64,000 bases of DNA, from positions 101,108 through 165,107 of the forward strand of contig JACRMH010000022.1 of the NCBI GenBank assembly GCA_016219545.1, written 5' to 3'. Source of the stretch: Chloroflexota bacterium. Its GTDB lineage: Bacteria; Chloroflexota; Anaerolineae; Anaerolineales; Villigracilaceae. Positions 21,654-49,953 of the stretch are shown here, one piece after another. Positions within the stretch are counted from its first letter, which is position 1, and every line of letters starts with the position of its first letter. The notes under the pieces are model-generated. The model was not told the origin of the DNA and ran no database searches. It worked only from the letters and a program-made list of their open reading frames with translations. Both the position numbers and the translations under genes were made by a program.

Positions 21654-22064
21654 ATGTCCGCGATCTTTCCGAGTAAAGAATGGCTCAATGAGTTGGAAGT
21701 GAAACTTAATTCAGATCCAAAATATGCCGATGTTGCCAAAAATTGGGAAGGCGACATATTCATTGTGATCGAACCCAAGGGTAATTTGAAGGAACCCCTC
21801 TCGGTCTATCTGGACCTGTGGCATGGGAAGTGCAAAAAAGTGGAATACAACCCTGCGGCAGGGACCTACCCAAAACCAACCTTTACGCTGACGGCCAACT
21901 ATGACGATATTAAAGACATCGCCACCGGAAAATTAAACCCCATGACAGCCATGATGACCATGAAATTAAAAGTAAAAGGCAACATGGGTTACATGATGCG
22001 AAACGTCCCCACCGTATTGGACTTTGTCCGCTGTTTGCAGGAAGTAACAACGGAAATTCTTTAG
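21654..22064 (+). CDS. SCP2 sterol-binding-domain protein
   Basis: A 136-residue soluble protein with the SCP-2 sterol-transfer fold: a helix-rich N-terminus, the strand region GDIFIVIEPKG...SVYLDLWHGKCKKV, and the characteristic C-terminal FTLTANYDDIKDIATGKLNPMTAMM with MKLKVKGNMG. Bacterial members bind fatty acids, lipids or similar hydrophobic ligands. The ATG has GGAGG upstream, and TACAAT about 30 bases before it may be the -10 box. The aldehyde:ferredoxin oxidoreductase gene follows after 69 bp, so the two may work together on a hydrophobic aldehyde; this is inference. Confidence 0.82.
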   Translation: MSAIFPSKEWLNELEVKLNSDPKYADVAKNWEGDIFIVIEPKGNLKEPLSVYLDLWHGKCKKVEYNPAAGTYPKPTFTLTANYDDIKDIATGKLNPMTAMMTMKLKVKGNMGYMMRNVPTVLDFVRCLQEVTTEIL

Positions 22065-22072
22065 GCGTTGAA

Positions 22073-22130
22073 AGTTGAAGGTTACAGGTTGAAAGTCAAA
22101 CTTGTAACCTTCAACTTGTAACCTTCAACT
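22073..22130. repeat. TTGAAGGTTACA-type inverted and direct repeats
   Basis: AGTTGAAGGTTACA at 22073-22086 is followed by two tandem copies of its exact reverse complement, TGTAACCTTCAACT (22103-22116 and 22117-22130). The last copy ends a few bases before the AOR start codon. A related element with the same AACCTTCAA core lies at 33581-33625. Confidence 0.8.
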
Positions 22131-22133
22131 CAA

Positions 22134-23951
22134 ATGCAACCCATCCTCAAAATAAATCTCACCACCAACGCAACCGAAGAATTTGTCATCCCAAAAGAGT
22201 GGGTGAACGAATTTCTCGGCGGAGCATCCCTTGCCGCACGGATTCTGTATCCGTATCTCACCAAGGAACTTGACCCGTTATCAGCAGAATCACCGTTGCT
22301 CTTTATCACCGGTCCGCTTACAGGGACGAATGGCCCGACCACTGGTCGCTTTGTGATCTGTGGGAAAGGTCCCGCCACGAACTTGTGGGCTGAATCCAAC
22401 ATCGGCGGCTTCTGGGGACCAGAACTGCGCGCGGCGGGTTACGATGGATTATGGATCACAGGGAAATCTCAAAGCCCGGTCTATCTTTGGATCGAAGACG
22501 GCAGGCTTGAGGTCAGGAATGCGGCGAGTGTTTGGGGTAAGGATATTTATCAGACTCAGGAAATGATCAAAGAAGAAGTCGGAGTCAAAGGCGCGCATGT
22601 CGCCGTGATCGGAGAAGGCGGGGAGAACGGCGTCTTGTATGCATCCATTGCGTGTGACCATGGACGCTTTGCCGGGCGCACTGGACTCGGCGCGGTGATG
22701 GGCTCGAAGAATCTCAAAGCCGTTGCGGTGCATGGTACGAAGAAAATTGCAGTTGCGGACTTTGAACGTTATTCCGCGTTGCGTTCCGAAGCTAACCGCA
22801 CGCTTAAGCAGGATAATGAAACGAAAATTTTTCACGAACTCGGCACGGCAGGCGGAGCAAATTTCGCGGAATATCTCGGGCAAATGCCTTCGAAATATTA
22901 TCATCAAGGTTCCTTTGAAGGCGTGGACAATGTCTCCGGCTCGAAGATGGCCGAAAGTATTCTAGTTGGGACGAGCGCCTGTCAGGGTTGTGTCATCGCT
23001 TGTGGACGTGTGGTGAATCTCGGCGACGGAAAAAAACGCAAGGGTCCTGAGTACGAAACCATTGTCGGCTTTGGACCGAACCTTTTAATTGATGACCTCG
23101 CTGAAACCGTGCGGCTCGGTGAACTGTGTGACCTGTATGGCATGGATGTTATCAGCACGGCCAACACGATTGGGTTGGCTTTTTATTTGTATGAATTGGG
23201 CAGGTTGACTAAAGAAGATACCGGCGGTATTGAACTGACTTGGGGAAATTTCATGGCAGTGCGTCAGCTAATCCCCATGATCGCACATCGTGAAGGGATC
23301 GGCGAATTGCTTGCGCGCGGGTCACGTCAATTCGGCGCAGCATTCAATGCGGAAGATGAAGCCGTGCAGGTGAATGGACTCGAGGTGGCATACCACGATC
23401 CGCGTGGTGTTTCTGGCATGGCTCTGACCTATGCCACCAGTCCGCGCGGCGCTTGCCATAACCAGTCAGATTATTTCTTTGTGGATTGGGGACATACCAA
23501 CGAACAGATCGGCATTGAATTCTTTGAACGTCATGTGCAGTCAGAGAAGGCGGCGAACGTGGCGCGCCATCAAAATTGGCGGACCGTCTTCAACTCGGCG
23601 GTGATGTGTATCTTTGCGAATGTGGAACCCAAAATGCAGGTGGACCTGGTCAATGCGGCCTGCGGCCTGGATTGGACTCTCGCCGATATGATGAAGTCCG
23701 GCGAGCGCGCCTGGAATCTCAAACGCGCCATCAATAACCGCATGGGGTTGACCCGAGCGAATGATAAATTACCCAAGGCATTTCTCGAACCCTACAAAGA
23801 AGGCGGAGCGGCTGGATTTGTCCCTGATTTGCCTGCCATGCTTAACGCCTACTATGAAGCGCGGGGTTGGGATAAGGAAAGCGGGAAGCCCTCTGAAGAG
23901 AAGTTGATCGAGTTGGGGCTGGGGGATGTGGCGAAGGAGTTGTGGGATTAA
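22134..23951 (+). CDS. aor: aldehyde:ferredoxin oxidoreductase (tungsten/molybdopterin)
   Basis: A 605-residue protein of the AOR family, which oxidises aldehydes to carboxylates with ferredoxin, using a tungsto-bispterin and one [4Fe-4S] cluster. The cluster cysteines are C283, C286 and C290 in CQGCVIACG and C492 in AVMCIFAN. Other family marks are GGASLAARILY at the N-terminus, SNIGGFWGPELRAAGYDG and GRFAGRTGLGAVMGSKNLKA. The start codon has no ribosome-binding site; the repeat immediately upstream ends four bases before it, so translation may depend on the SCP2 gene. Presence of the enzyme suggests an anaerobic lifestyle. Confidence 0.93.
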   Translation: MQPILKINLTTNATEEFVIPKEWVNEFLGGASLAARILYPYLTKELDPLSAESPLLFITGPLTGTNGPTTGRFVICGKGPATNLWAESNIGGFWGPELRAAGYDGLWITGKSQSPVYLWIEDGRLEVRNAASVWGKDIYQTQEMIKEEVGVKGAHVAVIGEGGENGVLYASIACDHGRFAGRTGLGAVMGSKNLKAVAVHGTKKIAVADFERYSALRSEANRTLKQDNETKIFHELGTAGGANFAEYLGQMPSKYYHQGSFEGVDNVSGSKMAESILVGTSACQGCVIACGRVVNLGDGKKRKGPEYETIVGFGPNLLIDDLAETVRLGELCDLYGMDVISTANTIGLAFYLYELGRLTKEDTGGIELTWGNFMAVRQLIPMIAHREGIGELLARGSRQFGAAFNAEDEAVQVNGLEVAYHDPRGVSGMALTYATSPRGACHNQSDYFFVDWGHTNEQIGIEFFERHVQSEKAANVARHQNWRTVFNSAVMCIFANVEPKMQVDLVNAACGLDWTLADMMKSGERAWNLKRAINNRMGLTRANDKLPKAFLEPYKEGGAAGFVPDLPAMLNAYYEARGWDKESGKPSEEKLIELGLGDVAKELWD

Positions 23952-33555: not shown

Positions 33556-33560
33556 GAATC

Positions 33561-33625
33561 GTTACAGGTTTGTAGGTTCACAAGTTTGAAGGTTCAACCT
33601 GCCAACTTTCAAACCTTCAAACTTG
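33561..33625. repeat. CAAGTTTGAAGGTT palindromic repeat
   Basis: CAAGTTTGAAGGTT (33581-33594) and its perfect reverse complement (33612-33625), with GTTACAGGTTTGTAGGTT before them. The same core sequence occurs in front of aor (22073-22130), so this is a second dispersed palindrome family. Confidence 0.8.
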
Positions 33626-33643
33626 AAAACACAAAACAAACAA

Positions 33644-34738: not shown

Positions 34739-34849
34739 GTTTTCTCTCCTTTTGAAATTATCAATTTGATTATAGCCGAATGGACTTGCTGATACAAGAA
34801 CCGTTTGTCTTATTCCTCTACGGATTTTTACTCAAATCGTTTCGCTCTT

Positions 34850-34882
34850 AGCTGATAACTGTTCACTGCTCACTGACAACTG
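34850..34882. repeat. CAGTGAGCAGTGAACAGTTATC-type repeat
   Basis: Reads TGATAACTGTTCACTGCTCACTGACAACTGAC on the plus strand, a run of degenerate 7-8-bp units (ACTG-CACTG). This type of short intergenic repeat is familiar from many environmental genomes. It sits between the zinc-ribbon gene and the SPFH gene. Confidence 0.65.
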
Positions 34883-34883
34883 A

Positions 34884-35480
34884 CTACCCCTCCACCAACC
34901 TCGTCCCGCACGCCTGACAGAACAACGCATCTGAGGTATGTCCGCGTTTGCATTTCGGACAAATGCGTGGCAGGTCTGTGGGCAGCGCGCCTCCGCAAGA
35001 ACTGCACAATTCAAGTTCAGGGTCATTGGCTGTGTTGCAATACGGACATACTTTCGGGTTACCCGGCGCATTCTTTTCCCCAGCCAACGAACGCGTCAGC
35101 GCGCAAAGATCATTGATGGCATTCCAAATTTGTGGAGCGATATTTTCCTGCTTCAATTCCCCGACAATATCCGGGATCATCGCCAGCAATGAAAGTGGAC
35201 TACTCGCAGCACGTTCCATCATTTCACTGGCGTCTGCAGTTCTATCCAGCCAGTCGCGGTCACGGCTCATGGTGACCAGTACGCCGCCCTCTGTATCTGC
35301 AATATGAGCGGTGATGGGCGTTCCGTGCTTCGATCCAATCTGCACCAGCGAGGTATCTCCATGAGATTCAACTTTTGTACGATGCTGACGGTCATTGAAT
35401 CTGGCGGCAAGTTGTTCCGCCAGGGCTACGGCGCGAATCCCGCCATGGAACATGCGTTGATTGGGCGGCAATGTGTTCAT
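34884..35480 (-). CDS. double zinc-ribbon protein
   Basis: A 198-residue protein with an uncharacterised N-terminal domain (about 1-140) and two zinc ribbons at the C-terminus: CPYCNTANDPELELCSSCGG and CPKCKRGHTSDALFCQACG. The N-terminal part contains HIADTEGGVLVTMSRDRDW and no catalytic motif I recognise. It starts one base after the XdhC stop codon, which provides the GAAGGA ribosome-binding site, so the two are co-translated. It precedes the SPFH gene; in other bacteria SPFH proteins of this kind work with zinc-ribbon partners, so a link is plausible. Confidence 0.8.
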   Translation of the reverse strand: MNTLPPNQRMFHGGIRAVALAEQLAARFNDRQHRTKVESHGDTSLVQIGSKHGTPITAHIADTEGGVLVTMSRDRDWLDRTADASEMMERAASSPLSLLAMIPDIVGELKQENIAPQIWNAINDLCALTRSLAGEKNAPGNPKVCPYCNTANDPELELCSSCGGALPTDLPRICPKCKRGHTSDALFCQACGTRLVEG

Positions 35481-42958: not shown

Positions 42959-45900
42959 TTAGCGGTTCTTGAGTGCTCTCCAAATCTTTTCTGGCGTGAC
43001 CGGGTTGTCGTCCACGTTGACGCCGATGGCATCGAGGATGGCGTTGCCGACTGCTGGCGCGACTCCGTCCATCGGAATTTCAGCCACAGCTTTGACTCCA
43101 AATGGATGACTCGGCTCGAACGTCTCAACGAAGATGGTTTCGAGTTCCGGCATTTCATCTGCGCGGAAGATGTGATAACGGTCAAAGTCCCGTTCGATGG
43201 CTTGACCCTTTTCGTCGTAACGCATTTCTTCGCAGACGGCATAACCAAGCGCCTGGGTCATCCCGCCTTCGATTTGCCCGGAGGCTGTCTGCGGGTTGAT
43301 GATGACTCCCGAGTCAACAGCCATCACAAGCCGGTCAACAGTGACGGCGCCTGTTTCTGTGTCCACTGTCACTTCGGCGAATTGGGCGGCGAAGGGCGGC
43401 GGCGATACCGGCGAGACATAACTCGCCACGCCCATGATCTGTTCCTGATTGTTCTTGTGCAAACTATCGAGAGCAATATCTGCCATTGAAACAGACCTGC
43501 CATCTGGAGCGATTGCCATGCGATTGACAAGTCGAATGTCAGCAGGTCGAAGGTTTTCACTCTGACTTTCGACTTTTGACTTTTGATTAATCATGTTTGC
43601 CGCTCTTATTCTGATCCTCTCCGCTACGATCTTGGCCGCATTGACTGCCGCTGTTCCGGAAATATAAGTTGTGGATGAAGCGTATGCGCCTTTATCGAAC
43701 GGTGTGAAATCTGTGTCGGATGAATAGGTGATCATATCTTCAACTGGCACGCCCAAAATTTCCGCTGCCATTTGCGCGAGGACAGTATCAGAGCCGGTAC
43801 CCAGATCTGTAGCACCAACCAAAAGGTTGAAAGAGCCGTCATCATTCATCTTGATGGATGCGCCGCCCATATCCAAATAAGGAATTGCTGTTCCTTGCAT
43901 GACCATCGCGATGCCAATACCTTTACGTAACGTTGAACGTTTAACGTTCAACGTTGAATGCCATTCCTCATTCCCAAACTTGTCATCCCACCCGATCGCG
44001 GCGCGGCCTTGCGCTACGCACTGTTCCAAGCCGACGGTGTTGATGATCTCTGGGCGCGGCTCGCGGCCTTCATTCCATGCTGTTGAGAACGGATGATATT
44101 CTCCGGCATGGATTGCATTCTTCAAACGGAAGTCAATGGGGTCAAGCCCCAACGCGCGCGCGATCTTTTCCATGTGACGGTCGAGCGGCCAATATCCTTG
44201 CGGCACGCCGTATCCGCGGAAAGCTCCTGCGGGCGGCGTGTTGGTGTAAACCACATCGGCATAAAAGCGAATATTCGGCGCTTTGCGATACTCGCCGTTA
44301 CCGACATACAATGCCATTGCCTTGTGACCCGTGTTTCCGGTCACGGTCAACGCATGGCAGCCATACGCGCCTGTATCCGATAATGCATACATCGAGTTGG
44401 CTGTGATCGTGCCATCTTTCTTCACACCGGTTTTCATCTGCACGCGCATAGGATGACGCGAACGCGCCGCGATAAATTCCTCTTCGCGCGTGTATTCATA
44501 GATCACAGGTTGTTTGGTCGCAATCGTCAAATGCGCGGCCACATCTTCGATCAACACTTCCTGCTTGCCGCCGAATCCTCCGCCAATGCGCGGCTTGATG
44601 ACTCGGATTCTTTTTACAGGCAATCCCAAAACCGGAGCCATCATTCTGCGCACATGAAATGGCACTTGCGTGGACGTGCGGATCACAAGGCGGTCATCTT
44701 CGTCCCAATAGGTCACCACCACATGCGGCTCGATGTGCGCCTGCTGAACTTTCGGCACTTCGTAATTCGCTTCAAAGATCACATCGGCTTCCGCGAATCC
44801 TTTTTCGACATTACCAATGTCAATGCGGATTTCTGCCGCAAGATTATTCTGCGGATCGGAATCTGCGAAGTTGACATATTCCTCTTCATCGTGAATACGG
44901 ATCGGACTCCCCATAGCCTGTCTCGCATCAAGGATCGGAGTCAGCGCCTCGTATTCGACCTCGATCAACGCGAGCGCCTTTTCAGCAATCTCGGCTGTTT
45001 CCGCCGCGACGAATGCCACGCGGTCCCCAACGAAGCGGACTTTCTTGTCGAGCGAAAACGCATCCAACGGCCCGGGGATCGGGTCGCTTTGTCCCGCAGT
45101 GGAATACACAACACGCGGCAGATCCTTCCACGTCAAGACAGCCGCGACTCCGTCCAATGCCTTGGCTTTAGTAGTGTCAATGTTTTTTATCAAAGCATGT
45201 GCGTATGGCGAATGTAAAACCTTGGCATGGAGCATTCCACGTTTTTCAAAATCTGCGGTGAAGGCAGGTTTGCCCTGCGCCAATTTGACCGCATCCAATT
45301 TGATTTCAGGCTTGCCGACGGTTTGGTATTTCTCTGTTTCAGGGGTGAGAATGATCCTTTGTTTTGTGAGCAGGTTACCTGTTGTATCGGGAGTCGGAAA
45401 TTGGGAGTCGGTTGAAGGTGGTTTTCCGATTCCCCGCGAAGCGTCCCAATTCCCAATTCCCGATTCCCGATTATCAATTCCCGACTCTCCCCTCAACATG
45501 GCCGCTGCCTTTAACACCGCCTGCACTGGCTTCAGATACCCTGTGCAGCGGCACAACACACCGGAGATCGCCTCGCGGATTTCAGCTTCGGTTGGGTTTG
45601 GATTTTTATCCAGCAGGGATTTCGCCGCGAGGATTTGTGCGGGTGTGCAATAACCGCATTGGACCGCGCCGGTTTCAATAAATGCTTTTTGCAGTGGATG
45701 CAGTCCTTCGGTCTTGTTCCAGCCTTGATCCGGATGCTCGCCCAATGCTTCGATGGTTGCGACTTTGTGACCCTCCGCCTGTGCCGCCAGCAAAGACCCC
45801 GCGTTGACAGGTTTGCCATTTAATAAGACTGTATCCGAACCACTCAAGCCGCCTTCATCGCCAAACTTGACTCCATGAAAGCCAAGTCCGCGCAGGGCGG

Positions 45901-45970
45901 AGAATAATGTTGTGGATGGAGTAAGGTCAAGGTTGTGGTCAGTACCGTTAATGTGAAGTGTGATGTTCAT
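42959..45970 (-). CDS. xdhD: XdhD-like molybdenum hydroxylase, fused Fe-S and molybdopterin subunits
   Basis: A 1003-residue xanthine-dehydrogenase-type protein. The N-terminal ferredoxin-like domain (1-75) has lost the plant-type [2Fe-2S] cysteines (GDEGGLSGSDTVLLNGK), as in E. coli XdhD. The second [2Fe-2S] domain is intact: C105, C108, C140, C142. The molybdopterin part (about 215-1003) has FVGDRVAFVAAE, GGFGGKQEVLIEDV, GAFRGYGVPQG, LGTGSDT and KAVAEIPMDG. I see three in-frame inserts that look like dispersed repeats: residues 161-199, about 672-681 and about 793-804. AGGAG precedes the ATG. Closest named relatives are putative selenium-linked hydroxylases; the substrate is unknown. Confidence 0.85.
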   Translation of the reverse strand: MNITLHINGTDHNLDLTPSTTLFSALRGLGFHGVKFGDEGGLSGSDTVLLNGKPVNAGSLLAAQAEGHKVATIEALGEHPDQGWNKTEGLHPLQKAFIETGAVQCGYCTPAQILAAKSLLDKNPNPTEAEIREAISGVLCRCTGYLKPVQAVLKAAAMLRGESGIDNRESGIGNWDASRGIGKPPSTDSQFPTPDTTGNLLTKQRIILTPETEKYQTVGKPEIKLDAVKLAQGKPAFTADFEKRGMLHAKVLHSPYAHALIKNIDTTKAKALDGVAAVLTWKDLPRVVYSTAGQSDPIPGPLDAFSLDKKVRFVGDRVAFVAAETAEIAEKALALIEVEYEALTPILDARQAMGSPIRIHDEEEYVNFADSDPQNNLAAEIRIDIGNVEKGFAEADVIFEANYEVPKVQQAHIEPHVVVTYWDEDDRLVIRTSTQVPFHVRRMMAPVLGLPVKRIRVIKPRIGGGFGGKQEVLIEDVAAHLTIATKQPVIYEYTREEEFIAARSRHPMRVQMKTGVKKDGTITANSMYALSDTGAYGCHALTVTGNTGHKAMALYVGNGEYRKAPNIRFYADVVYTNTPPAGAFRGYGVPQGYWPLDRHMEKIARALGLDPIDFRLKNAIHAGEYHPFSTAWNEGREPRPEIINTVGLEQCVAQGRAAIGWDDKFGNEEWHSTLNVKRSTLRKGIGIAMVMQGTAIPYLDMGGASIKMNDDGSFNLLVGATDLGTGSDTVLAQMAAEILGVPVEDMITYSSDTDFTPFDKGAYASSTTYISGTAAVNAAKIVAERIRIRAANMINQKSKVESQSENLRPADIRLVNRMAIAPDGRSVSMADIALDSLHKNNQEQIMGVASYVSPVSPPPFAAQFAEVTVDTETGAVTVDRLVMAVDSGVIINPQTASGQIEGGMTQALGYAVCEEMRYDEKGQAIERDFDRYHIFRADEMPELETIFVETFEPSHPFGVKAVAEIPMDGVAPAVGNAILDAIGVNVDDNPVTPEKIWRALKNR
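43561..43592. repeat. GACTTTTGACTTT-type repeat inside the XdhD-like gene
   Basis: Degenerate tandem units (GACTTTC, GACTTTT, GACTTTT) encode NQKSKVESQSEN in frame. The stretch lies between two conserved parts of the molybdopterin domain (AANMI and LRPADIRL). Confidence 0.6.
43929..43955. repeat. AACGTTGAACGTT palindrome inside the XdhD-like gene
   Basis: AACGTTGAACGTT, one base, then its reverse complement. It encodes STLNVKRSTL in frame between EEWH and RKGIGIAMVMQ, where related enzymes run directly from the tryptophan-histidine region into the GxGIA motif. Confidence 0.7.
45376..45490. repeat. GGGAATTGGGAGTCGG-type repeat inside the XdhD-like gene
   Basis: About 115 bp of degenerate GGGAnT-GGGA units in inverted halves. 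It encodes ESGIDNRESGIGNWDASRG and a further 20 residues in frame, exactly in the linker between the [2Fe-2S] and molybdopterin domains. Confidence 0.7.
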
Positions 45971-45992: not shown

Positions 45993-46505
45993 TTATTTCA
46001 ATCGTGATTTTAACTCTTGCAGATGAGCAAGTATGTCTGGGTGCAAATCAAATTTGCCAGCTTTGGATATAGCGCTATTTGTAATTTGCTCTAATTCTTT
46101 GAGCGTTATGTAATCGTTTTTAATTAGAAAGATAATGTCGTCAAAATCAGTGAACAGACCACGATCTAATTTACTGAGCGCAATGCTGTACGGGTCAATC
46201 ACATAGATTTCAAGATTCGCAAATTGACCAATGTATATACTGCGTTGTTCATTTCCTTCCGGCAGGGGAACAAAGCGGTCAATAGGAACAATGTCAACCT
46301 GCAATTTCATTTCTTTGGCTTTCGCCATAATTGCGCGATGTAATTCATTTGGATGAACATCATCGCCGACGAAATCAATATCAAGAGATGGGCGCGGGCT
46401 TCCGAGCAGAGTCAATGCGCTGCCACCGACCAGGAATAAGCGAGAAGCAGGCGGGACTTGCTCTCCCAAAATTGTCAAGATGGATTGAAGTTTGGATTTA
46501 TCCAT
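45993..46505 (-). CDS. nucleotidyltransferase-fold protein (DUF6036/AbiEii-like)
   Basis: A 170-residue protein with a polymerase-beta-type nucleotidyltransferase core: LVGGSALTLLGSPRPSLDIDFV, containing the GG-S and D-x-D motif. The track ORF starts at 46541, overlapping the upstream gene by 34 bases; ATG 46505, two bases after the upstream stop, gives a simple coupled start and was chosen. It is the last of three coupled genes (methyltransferase, unknown 160-residue protein, this gene). Such proteins can be antitoxins, abortive-infection factors or RNA modifiers; which one applies is not known. Confidence 0.78.
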   Translation of the reverse strand: MDKSKLQSILTILGEQVPPASRLFLVGGSALTLLGSPRPSLDIDFVGDDVHPNELHRAIMAKAKEMKLQVDIVPIDRFVPLPEGNEQRSIYIGQFANLEIYVIDPYSIALSKLDRGLFTDFDDIIFLIKNDYITLKELEQITNSAISKAGKFDLHPDILAHLQELKSRLK

Positions 46506-46507
46506 AA

Positions 46508-48111
<1,604 letters not shown>

Positions 48112-49197: not shown

Positions 49198-49953
49198 TTA
49201 TAAGGCTTCCAAACATCTCTTCGCCAGTACGGACGCGACATCCATTCTGTATTCCGCGCTTGCCCATTCATCTGTCGCTTCGTGATAAGCGTTGCGCGCC
49301 GCGGACTCCAACCCTTCGGCTTCGGTGCCGTCCATGGCCAGCATGGGACTCTTGTCATAGCCGCCGAGTGCAAGGCGCGTGCGGCCGGAGTTCCATTGGG
49401 TCAAAGCGGCGCAGATGATGGGTTTATCTGCAGGCGTGCGGGAAACGAATTCAAAGGCGAATTTGGTGTTGAGGGGAAGAGTGATCAAGGTAATGAGTCC
49501 GCGTGGGCGGAGGGGGAGAAAATCTCCCAGACCATAGACAGTGGACGATGGACCGTCTACTGTCTTCGGTCCACGGTCTATGCTCAATTTTGCATCCATG
49601 GATAGTAATGCTGTTGCAAATGGGGATCGTCCGTCGCTTGCAACAAGAGTCCCTGCGATGGTGGCCATATTGCGGATGTTAATCGGCGCTTCGAGTTTGA
49701 TGGCAGATCTTAAGGCTTCGGGACAATGTTCGGATTCAAGTAATGACTGTAAAGTACAGGTCGCGCCGATCTCGAGTTCATTCCCTTTGACGCGGAGCGT
49801 ATCCAGTCCGAGGTGTTGCAAGTCCACAACGGAAACAGAGTCAACTGTCGGGTGAGAGAGAAGCGTGCCTCCTCCGAGTGGAAAAGTGTTCGGTTGAGAT
49901 AAAAGAGTCAGGGCTTCATCCAATGTTTGCGGACGGTGGTATGTCGTGATCAT
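49198..49953 (-). CDS. FAD-binding subunit of a molybdenum hydroxylase (XdhB/CoxM-like)
   Basis: A 251-residue protein with the FAD motifs PLGGGTLL and NIRNMATIAGTLVASDGRSPF. It is somewhat shorter than usual for the family (about 280), particularly at the C-terminus. In the middle (residues about 123-141) the sequence DRGPKTVDGPSSTVYG is encoded by a palindromic repeat and looks like an insertion. It probably passes electrons from the XdhD-like subunit at 42959-45970 to NAD or another acceptor. TATAAT and a GGAGG site lie upstream. Confidence 0.85.
   Translation of the reverse strand: MITTYHRPQTLDEALTLLSQPNTFPLGGGTLLSHPTVDSVSVVDLQHLGLDTLRVKGNELEIGATCTLQSLLESEHCPEALRSAIKLEAPINIRNMATIAGTLVASDGRSPFATALLSMDAKLSIDRGPKTVDGPSSTVYGLGDFLPLRPRGLITLITLPLNTKFAFEFVSRTPADKPIICAALTQWNSGRTRLALGGYDKSPMLAMDGTEAEGLESAARNAYHEATDEWASAEYRMDVASVLAKRCLEAL
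49527..49586. repeat. GGTCCACGGTCTATG-type palindrome inside the FAD-subunit gene
   Basis: CATAGAC-GTGGAC and GTCCAC-GTCTATG are inverted arms separated by about 20 bases. It encodes about 18 residues in frame. The sequence style is that of widely dispersed intergenic repeats. Confidence 0.7.

Follow-up and report, generated by a model that had tools for sequence, protein, structure and literature searches.

Most known palindromes that encode protein come from Rickettsia and Wolbachia, with intragenic REPs as occasional further cases. The Rickettsia palindromic elements (RPEs; also present in Wolbachia) form palindromic families of which some members lie in frame in conserved genes without damaging them and others are intergenic (PMC2229807). 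REPs carrying a GTAG or CGTC tag also occur inside genes, including those for DNA ligase, excinucleases and tRNA synthetases, and a bias of the intragenic REPs to DNA repair genes has been reported (PMC3733652). Two repeats with a 7-bp unit have been described as well. GGGNATC heptamers form 70-75 convergent inverted pairs per genome in Xanthomonas and are 89-93% intergenic there and 68% intergenic in Nostoc (PMC4692102), and the TAACTGA direct repeats of Beggiatoaceae, cyanobacteria and Bacteroidetes are intergenic and lie near start codons (PMC4679880). Finally, nematomorph mitochondrial genes contain coding palindromes, perfect repeats that encode conserved residues (PMC6649704).

The DNA described here, a window of 64,000 nucleotides (the whole stretch that was analysed), comes from the Anaerolineales (Chloroflexota); Candidatus Villigracilaceae is the name attached to one ortholog locus. 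The assembly of the window genome consists of 68 contigs and is 87.7% complete. In this free-living lineage a different class of palindrome, built from 7-bp units, lies in frame in many housekeeping enzymes. Coding heptamer palindromes in Chloroflexota were not described in the literature consulted, which is weak evidence given its thin coverage of subscription sources.

The linker element of the XdhD-like gene

The element reported in the earlier note falls within a fused molybdenum hydroxylase subunit, with the following features.

42959..45970, minus strand: XdhD-like fused [2Fe-2S]/molybdopterin hydroxylase subunit, 1003 aa, frame intact (open reading frame; Pfam Fer2_2, Ald_Xan_dh_C, MoCoBD_1 and MoCoBD_2)
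45376..45490, unstranded: reported element, a degenerate GGGANTN heptamer array with palindrome, encoding linker residues 161-199 (period-7 and self-complement scoring; related copies in orthologs)
45386..45411, plus strand: left arm of the palindrome, 26 bp, ATCGGGAGTCGGAAATTGGGAGTCGG (best self-complement alignment)
45446..45471, minus strand: right arm of the palindrome, 26 bp, reading CCAATTCCCAATTCCCGATTCCCGAT on the plus strand (best self-complement alignment)

The 115 bp at 45376-45490 lie entirely within the 1003-aa open reading frame and comprise tandem GGGAATT/GGGAATC heptamers with a period of 7, plus a second, inverted stretch; the resulting palindrome, with its two 26-bp arms, is imperfect. 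Its period-7 (lag-7) score is 20/21 and its inverted-repeat score 18, compared with best shuffled scores of 14 and 12, respectively. Neither value was reached by any of 1000 mononucleotide shuffles, ruling out a chance repeat. An inverted-repeat finder run with its default seed detected no palindrome, because the palindromes are degenerate, and our own scoring was used in its place. The DNA folding energy of the hairpin is only mildly unusual (z = -1.83). When the 115 bp were used as a query against their own genome, eight further partial matches of 26-46 bp were found at 85-96% identity, and a strict pattern of three GGGANTN units matched 31 times in the window genome and not once in a backwards-read control.

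By Pfam, Fer2_2 ends at residue 152 and Ald_Xan_dh_C starts at 232, with residues 161-199 lying in between. The FeS chains of solved homologs align to residues ~1-163 of the query and the Mo chains start at ~209-219, so the linker corresponds to the fusion joint. The earlier note had proposed that a degenerate GGGAnT-type inverted repeat encodes this linker and that the repeat is dispersed; the open reading frame, the Pfam limits and the shuffles agree with the first proposal, and the eight partial copies provide the recurrence elsewhere in the genome that the second called for.

The same note expected residues 161-199 to be absent from relatives, and this was not the case. Orthologs of the XdhD-like gene were found in 150 of 152 same-family genomes, and the anchored linker segment, which measures 55 aa in the window protein, spans 46-57 aa in nearly all of 61 distinct orthologs, the exceptions being five distant Anaerolineaceae (27-30 aa) and one outgroup (L134, 73 aa). 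Taken literally, relatives thus carry the linker of equal length that the note had named as evidence against its claim, though the content of that linker differs. These lengths rule out a clean 39-aa insertion missing from relatives. Since linkers of similar length are so widespread, the repeat DNA appears to have rewritten an existing linker, with a net gain of about 6 aa, and not to have added one from nothing.

The content of the linker changes from species to species. Most relatives have unique linker sequence around "NWDFG". Fresh GGGANTN arrays, with a lag-7 score of 0.95 and inverted-repeat scores of 17-18, are present in the window (L010) and in L015, and from these a decay series leads through the partly decayed linkers of L016, L018 and L132 to the more decayed ones of L014 and L095. 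The linkers of L039 and L030 hold other heptamer families, and L037 and L106 have a further repeat-like linker. Here and at the two other sites discussed below, repeat families were assigned by eye.

Three further loops of the same enzyme

Two more inserts in the XdhD-like gene and one in its FAD partner had been claimed, and all three proved to be palindromic heptamer arrays.

43926..43961, unstranded: site 2 element, an AACGTTN heptamer palindrome encoding HSTLNVKRSTLR (period-7 and palindrome scoring)
about 43530..43594, unstranded: site 3 element, a GTCNAAA heptamer array with a partial inverted arm, encoding about NQKSKVESQSENLRPADI (period-7 and palindrome scoring)
49198..49953, minus strand: FAD-binding partner subunit, 251 aa (open reading frame; Pfam FAD_binding_5)
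about 49530..49585, unstranded: FAD-subunit element, palindromic GACNGTG heptamers, RGPKTVDGPSSTVYG (ortholog comparison, palindrome scoring)

In relatives, the loop of the FAD subunit is shorter or is occupied by other families. The enzyme operon is interrupted, because the stretch that separates the Mo subunit from the FAD partner (window 45993-48075, minus strand) holds three other genes: one nucleotidyltransferase-like, one small and overlapping, and one DNA methyltransferase-like.

Apart from the N-terminal region, the ortholog alignment of the XdhD-like protein varies in length only at the linker, at site 2 (~residues 674-679) and at site 3 (~797-809). Lag-7 scores at these three positions are 0.7-0.95 in many species, compared with at most 0.57 in all 1891 background windows taken from the same genes outside the loops. 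The frames are intact across the 61 orthologs, and the copies persist in frame. The alignments place the encoded peptides in apparent loops, and the intact frames suggest that the elements are translated and that the protein tolerates them. An AlphaFold model of the enzyme (30-row alignment) reached a mean pLDDT of 45.5 and a pTM of 0.33, too poor for loop positions; judging from homolog alignments, interdomain joints and loops would be the places that tolerate foreign peptide. Nicotinate dehydrogenase naturally consists of two separate chains here, one aligning to 214-623 and the other to 684-1001, on either side of site 2.

Site 2 is a loop of 8-10 aa without a repeat in outgroups and holds about ten unrelated palindrome families across the 61 orthologs. 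Its heptamers include AACGTTN, GTCNAAA, CCGTCNA, CAGGTNT, CGTAATA, AAAAATC and others, depending on the species, and in L016, L020, L024, L069, L092 and L109 it is occupied by REP-like palindromes that start with GTAG and are not built from heptamers. The GTAG-like (GTAG/GTAA/GTAC) palindromes of these six and of L027 and L033 all start right after the first codon of the loop, a common start that points to a single old insertion or to a preferred target. In L019 and L037, a second palindromic repeat (of the GCCCTGAGC...GTCGAAGGG type) is apparently nested, in frame, in the GTCNAAA element of site 2, and a similar nested palindromic copy is present at site 3 of L031.

On a tree built by a quick method without the loops, and with states assigned by eye, at least 16 changes of family state are needed for the linker, at least 27 for site 2 and at least 15 for site 3. 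At site 2, the families differ between the sister rows L069 and L108. At sites 2 and 3, orthologs that hold the same family have flanks with raised third-position identity (permutation p about 0.01), L074/L108 being an example, so part of the turnover there reflects recombination between species and not new insertion. At the linker, flank third-position identity was not raised among same-family carriers (permutation p 0.92).

Period-7 arrays across the genome and in other core enzymes

The scan for period-7 arrays covered 464 kb of the window genome (the window itself and 400 kb taken from two contigs) and yielded 20 lag-7 arrays (at least 17/21), compared with 0-2 arrays for each of the lags 5, 6 and 8-13 and 0-1 lag-7 arrays in first-order Markov simulations; lag 14, the double unit, gave nine. 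Fifteen of the 20 lie within open reading frames of at least 150 aa, where about ten are clearly gene-internal by family models and the rest are near N-termini or in uncertain reading frames. A looser threshold returned 38 arrays, of which 30 are in open reading frames and 13 have a strong inverted partner close by. Of the 27 GGGANTN/AACGTTN loci that lie outside the sampled contigs, 22 fall in open reading frames of at least 100 aa. Two complete single-contig genomes of the genus also have arrays in open reading frames (three of four, and one of three), so the arrays are not a binning artefact. No period-7 arrays were found in 124 kb of outgroup loci, which are few and gene-centred.

A pattern of three AACGTTN units matched 40 times at 12 separate loci of the window genome (backwards-read control, 0), with 20 matches on each strand because the unit is palindromic. 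Arrays of this family were detected in 7 of 151 genomes of the order, the window genome included, and most copies are in the window genome. This rules out a lineage-wide family and makes family abundance species-specific; AACGTTN seems to have multiplied in the window species. Intergenic palindromes of AACCTTC/AACTTGT-type units, another family of similar style, were observed at window positions 22060-22135 and 33560-33632, and the period-7 scan of the window also located the following array.

34848..34887, unstranded: intergenic TAACTGA-type heptamer array

The earlier note had treated the phenomenon as centred on the XdhD-like enzyme, with four repeat families hitting one protein. The families were indeed found, but they are not special to this enzyme, as the pattern is genome-wide: many core genes of the window genome are affected, and elements are found again at the same loops throughout the bacterial family. 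Genes bearing elements and scoring above curated family-model cut-offs are those for MutL, PurL, PyrF, GlyRS beta, AcnA, QueA, RecJ, LigA and ArgRS; a DEAH helicase, a SpoU methyltransferase, an E2 acyltransferase, RlmI and homoserine dehydrogenase are below the cut-off but clear. Among these element-bearing genes, MutL is at L145:13126-14922, RecJ at L253:1935-4298 and LigA at L246:2011-4131.

The PyrF loop is short in several relatives (e.g. LQDVPLANNDLLYEH) and holds heptamer palindromes of differing families in at least seven genomes, that of the window included. The MutL linker, which joins the ATPase part to the C-terminal dimerisation domain (Pfam places their limits at 338 and 412), contains heptamers of various families in nearly all of the 30 relatives examined. 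In relatives, TAACTGA lies within coding sequence of the DEAH helicase, PurL and MutL linkers. The LigA palindrome corresponds to a 17-residue gap against E. coli LigA (2owo), and the AACGTTN segment of AcnA to a poorly aligned stretch against 2b3x. Interdomain positions are also seen for the GlyRS element, which precedes the beta part, and for the E2 element, which precedes the catalytic part.

Origin of the elements and relation to known systems

The reading that best explains these observations, to which we assign a probability of roughly two in three, is that dispersed palindromic repeat DNA is tolerated in open-frame loops and then decays or is swapped. A limited set of heptamer-built palindromic repeats (GGGANTN, AACGTTN, GTCNAAA, CGTCNAT, CAGGTNT, TAACTGA and others) would presumably spread in trans within genomes and thereby reach many sites. 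Copies landing in genes would persist where the frame stays open and the peptide forms a loop or an interdomain linker. Once settled, a copy could decay by substitution into unique linker sequence, be replaced by another family, or be exchanged between species through recombination that carries the flanks along. Decay and differences in family are visible, as far as alignments can tell, among the orthologs, and there is support for recombination at sites 2 and 3 and none at the linker. In this family of Anaerolineales, repeat DNA would thus repeatedly reshape protein loops, with the sites of relatives holding different palindromes. The idea in the earlier note of a dispersed palindromic repeat lying in frame in a tolerant linker is partly supported, being right at its core.

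Neither a transposition event with clean flanks nor a target duplication was seen among the loci compared, in which close relatives differ by replacement and insertion. Of the hallmarks of a MITE, terminal inverted repeats with a target-site duplication, palindromic arms are present; at PyrF and site 2, filled sites differ from empty ones by replacement as well as insertion, so no target duplication can be read there. Y1 transposases, the superfamily that includes RAYTs and IS200 transposases, give eight Y1_Tnp matches in the window genome, in a count that takes RAYTs and IS200 together. Each of the 21 genomes tested has such matches, and this presence throughout means that they do not explain the distribution of the elements. 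The GTAG-type elements of site 2 fit a REP/RAYT system, and the heptamer elements have no such tag.

Nothing need move if the arrays arise in place, through replication slippage and hairpin template switching at free loops, with selection keeping the in-frame outcomes. The units are degenerate and vary in number, 7-nt units of bacterial repeats have been proposed to be prone to slippage (reviewed in PMC4679880), and no mobile agent was identified, all of which would suit such an origin. We nevertheless consider it unlikely, as the same few families stand at unrelated loci and unrelated families stand at one site in sister species, as slippage alone makes no inverted second arm and swaps no families, and as GTAG-tagged palindromes without heptamers occupy the same site 2. 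That the repeats are kept for a function, either of hairpins or G-rich repeats in mRNA or DNA (structure, G-quadruplex, regulation) or of the peptides as linkers, is improbable. Family, orientation and palindrome are unconserved between orthologs at every site, many relatives lack a repeat at the sites, decayed versions are common and the folding energy of the reported element is only mildly unusual, even though GGGNATC repeats of other bacteria form G-quadruplexes (PMC4692102) and linker length is roughly conserved.

The raised flank identity at sites 2 and 3 would be expected if homologous recombination had carried these loops, as ordinary variable ones, from species to species, with the repeats as old passengers. 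The linker gives no such signal, however, and recombination spreads alleles but does not create many families per site, nor does it put the same families into dozens of unrelated genes of one genome, which leaves this account with very little probability. Least credible, and already contradicted, is the view that a normal linker resembles a repeat by chance, or that the assembly produced it: relatives have linkers of similar length and the window genome is fragmented and incomplete, but no shuffle attains either score, copies exist elsewhere with none in the control, and the same class recurs in independent assemblies and the two single-contig genomes.

A stronger form of the reading of dispersed, tolerated repeat DNA can be put forward only tentatively. 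A dedicated mechanism might keep copying heptamer palindromes into the genomes of this bacterial family, providing core enzymes with a standing source of loop and linker sequence; elements would arrive in frame, be translated, decay and be replaced, and a sizeable share of interdomain linkers would be repeat-derived. In dozens of related genomes, filled and empty sites can be seen next to swapped and decaying ones, and the old question of whether selfish repeats are a source of protein sequence, and of how heptamers spread, thereby becomes testable through comparison of close strains. There is also a warning, in that repeats may be the source of loop and linker sequence in such genomes, and of the N-termini that gene finders call there.

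Among the described systems, the elements share with RPEs their in-frame persistence in conserved genes, here in 61 orthologs of the XdhD-like gene and in MutL, LigA, PurL, PyrF and others. The likeness to Rickettsia drawn in the earlier note therefore stands for in-frame palindromic behaviour and fails for the repeat itself, which is a heptamer array of about 36-115 bp and not, in size or structure, a stem-loop of 105-146 bp free of tandem units; in addition, the lineage is a free-living one of Chloroflexota, and many families occupy one loop. Short intragenic palindromes are common to these genomes and to REPs, and some site 2 elements of relatives begin with GTAG. REPs, however, are 20-40 bp long, bear a tetranucleotide tag at the terminus and, in the GTAG type, have a RAYT transposase, whereas the heptamer elements, including the reported 115-bp array, are tandem arrays without a terminal tag, which only one class of site 2 elements in relatives possesses. 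The GGGNATC repeats of Xanthomonas and Nostoc have the same unit as GGGANTN, with the same degenerate positions, and are likewise tandem, dispersed and often arranged in inverted pairs, but here most arrays are in open reading frames and many other heptamer families behave alike. The TAACTGA heptamer is identical to one family found here, intergenic at 34848-34887 and coding in relatives, and coding or palindromic use is absent from its description in PMC4679880. Nematomorph mitochondrial genes also have inverted repeats in functional coding sequence, but not dispersed repeat families in loops. As the size and structure of RPEs and the terminal tag of REPs do not apply, and as the GGGNATC and TAACTGA units described before are mostly intergenic, we class the elements as a heptamer-built variant of protein-coding palindromic repeats, similar to RPEs and intragenic REPs and set apart from the former by size and structure and from the latter by the terminal tag.
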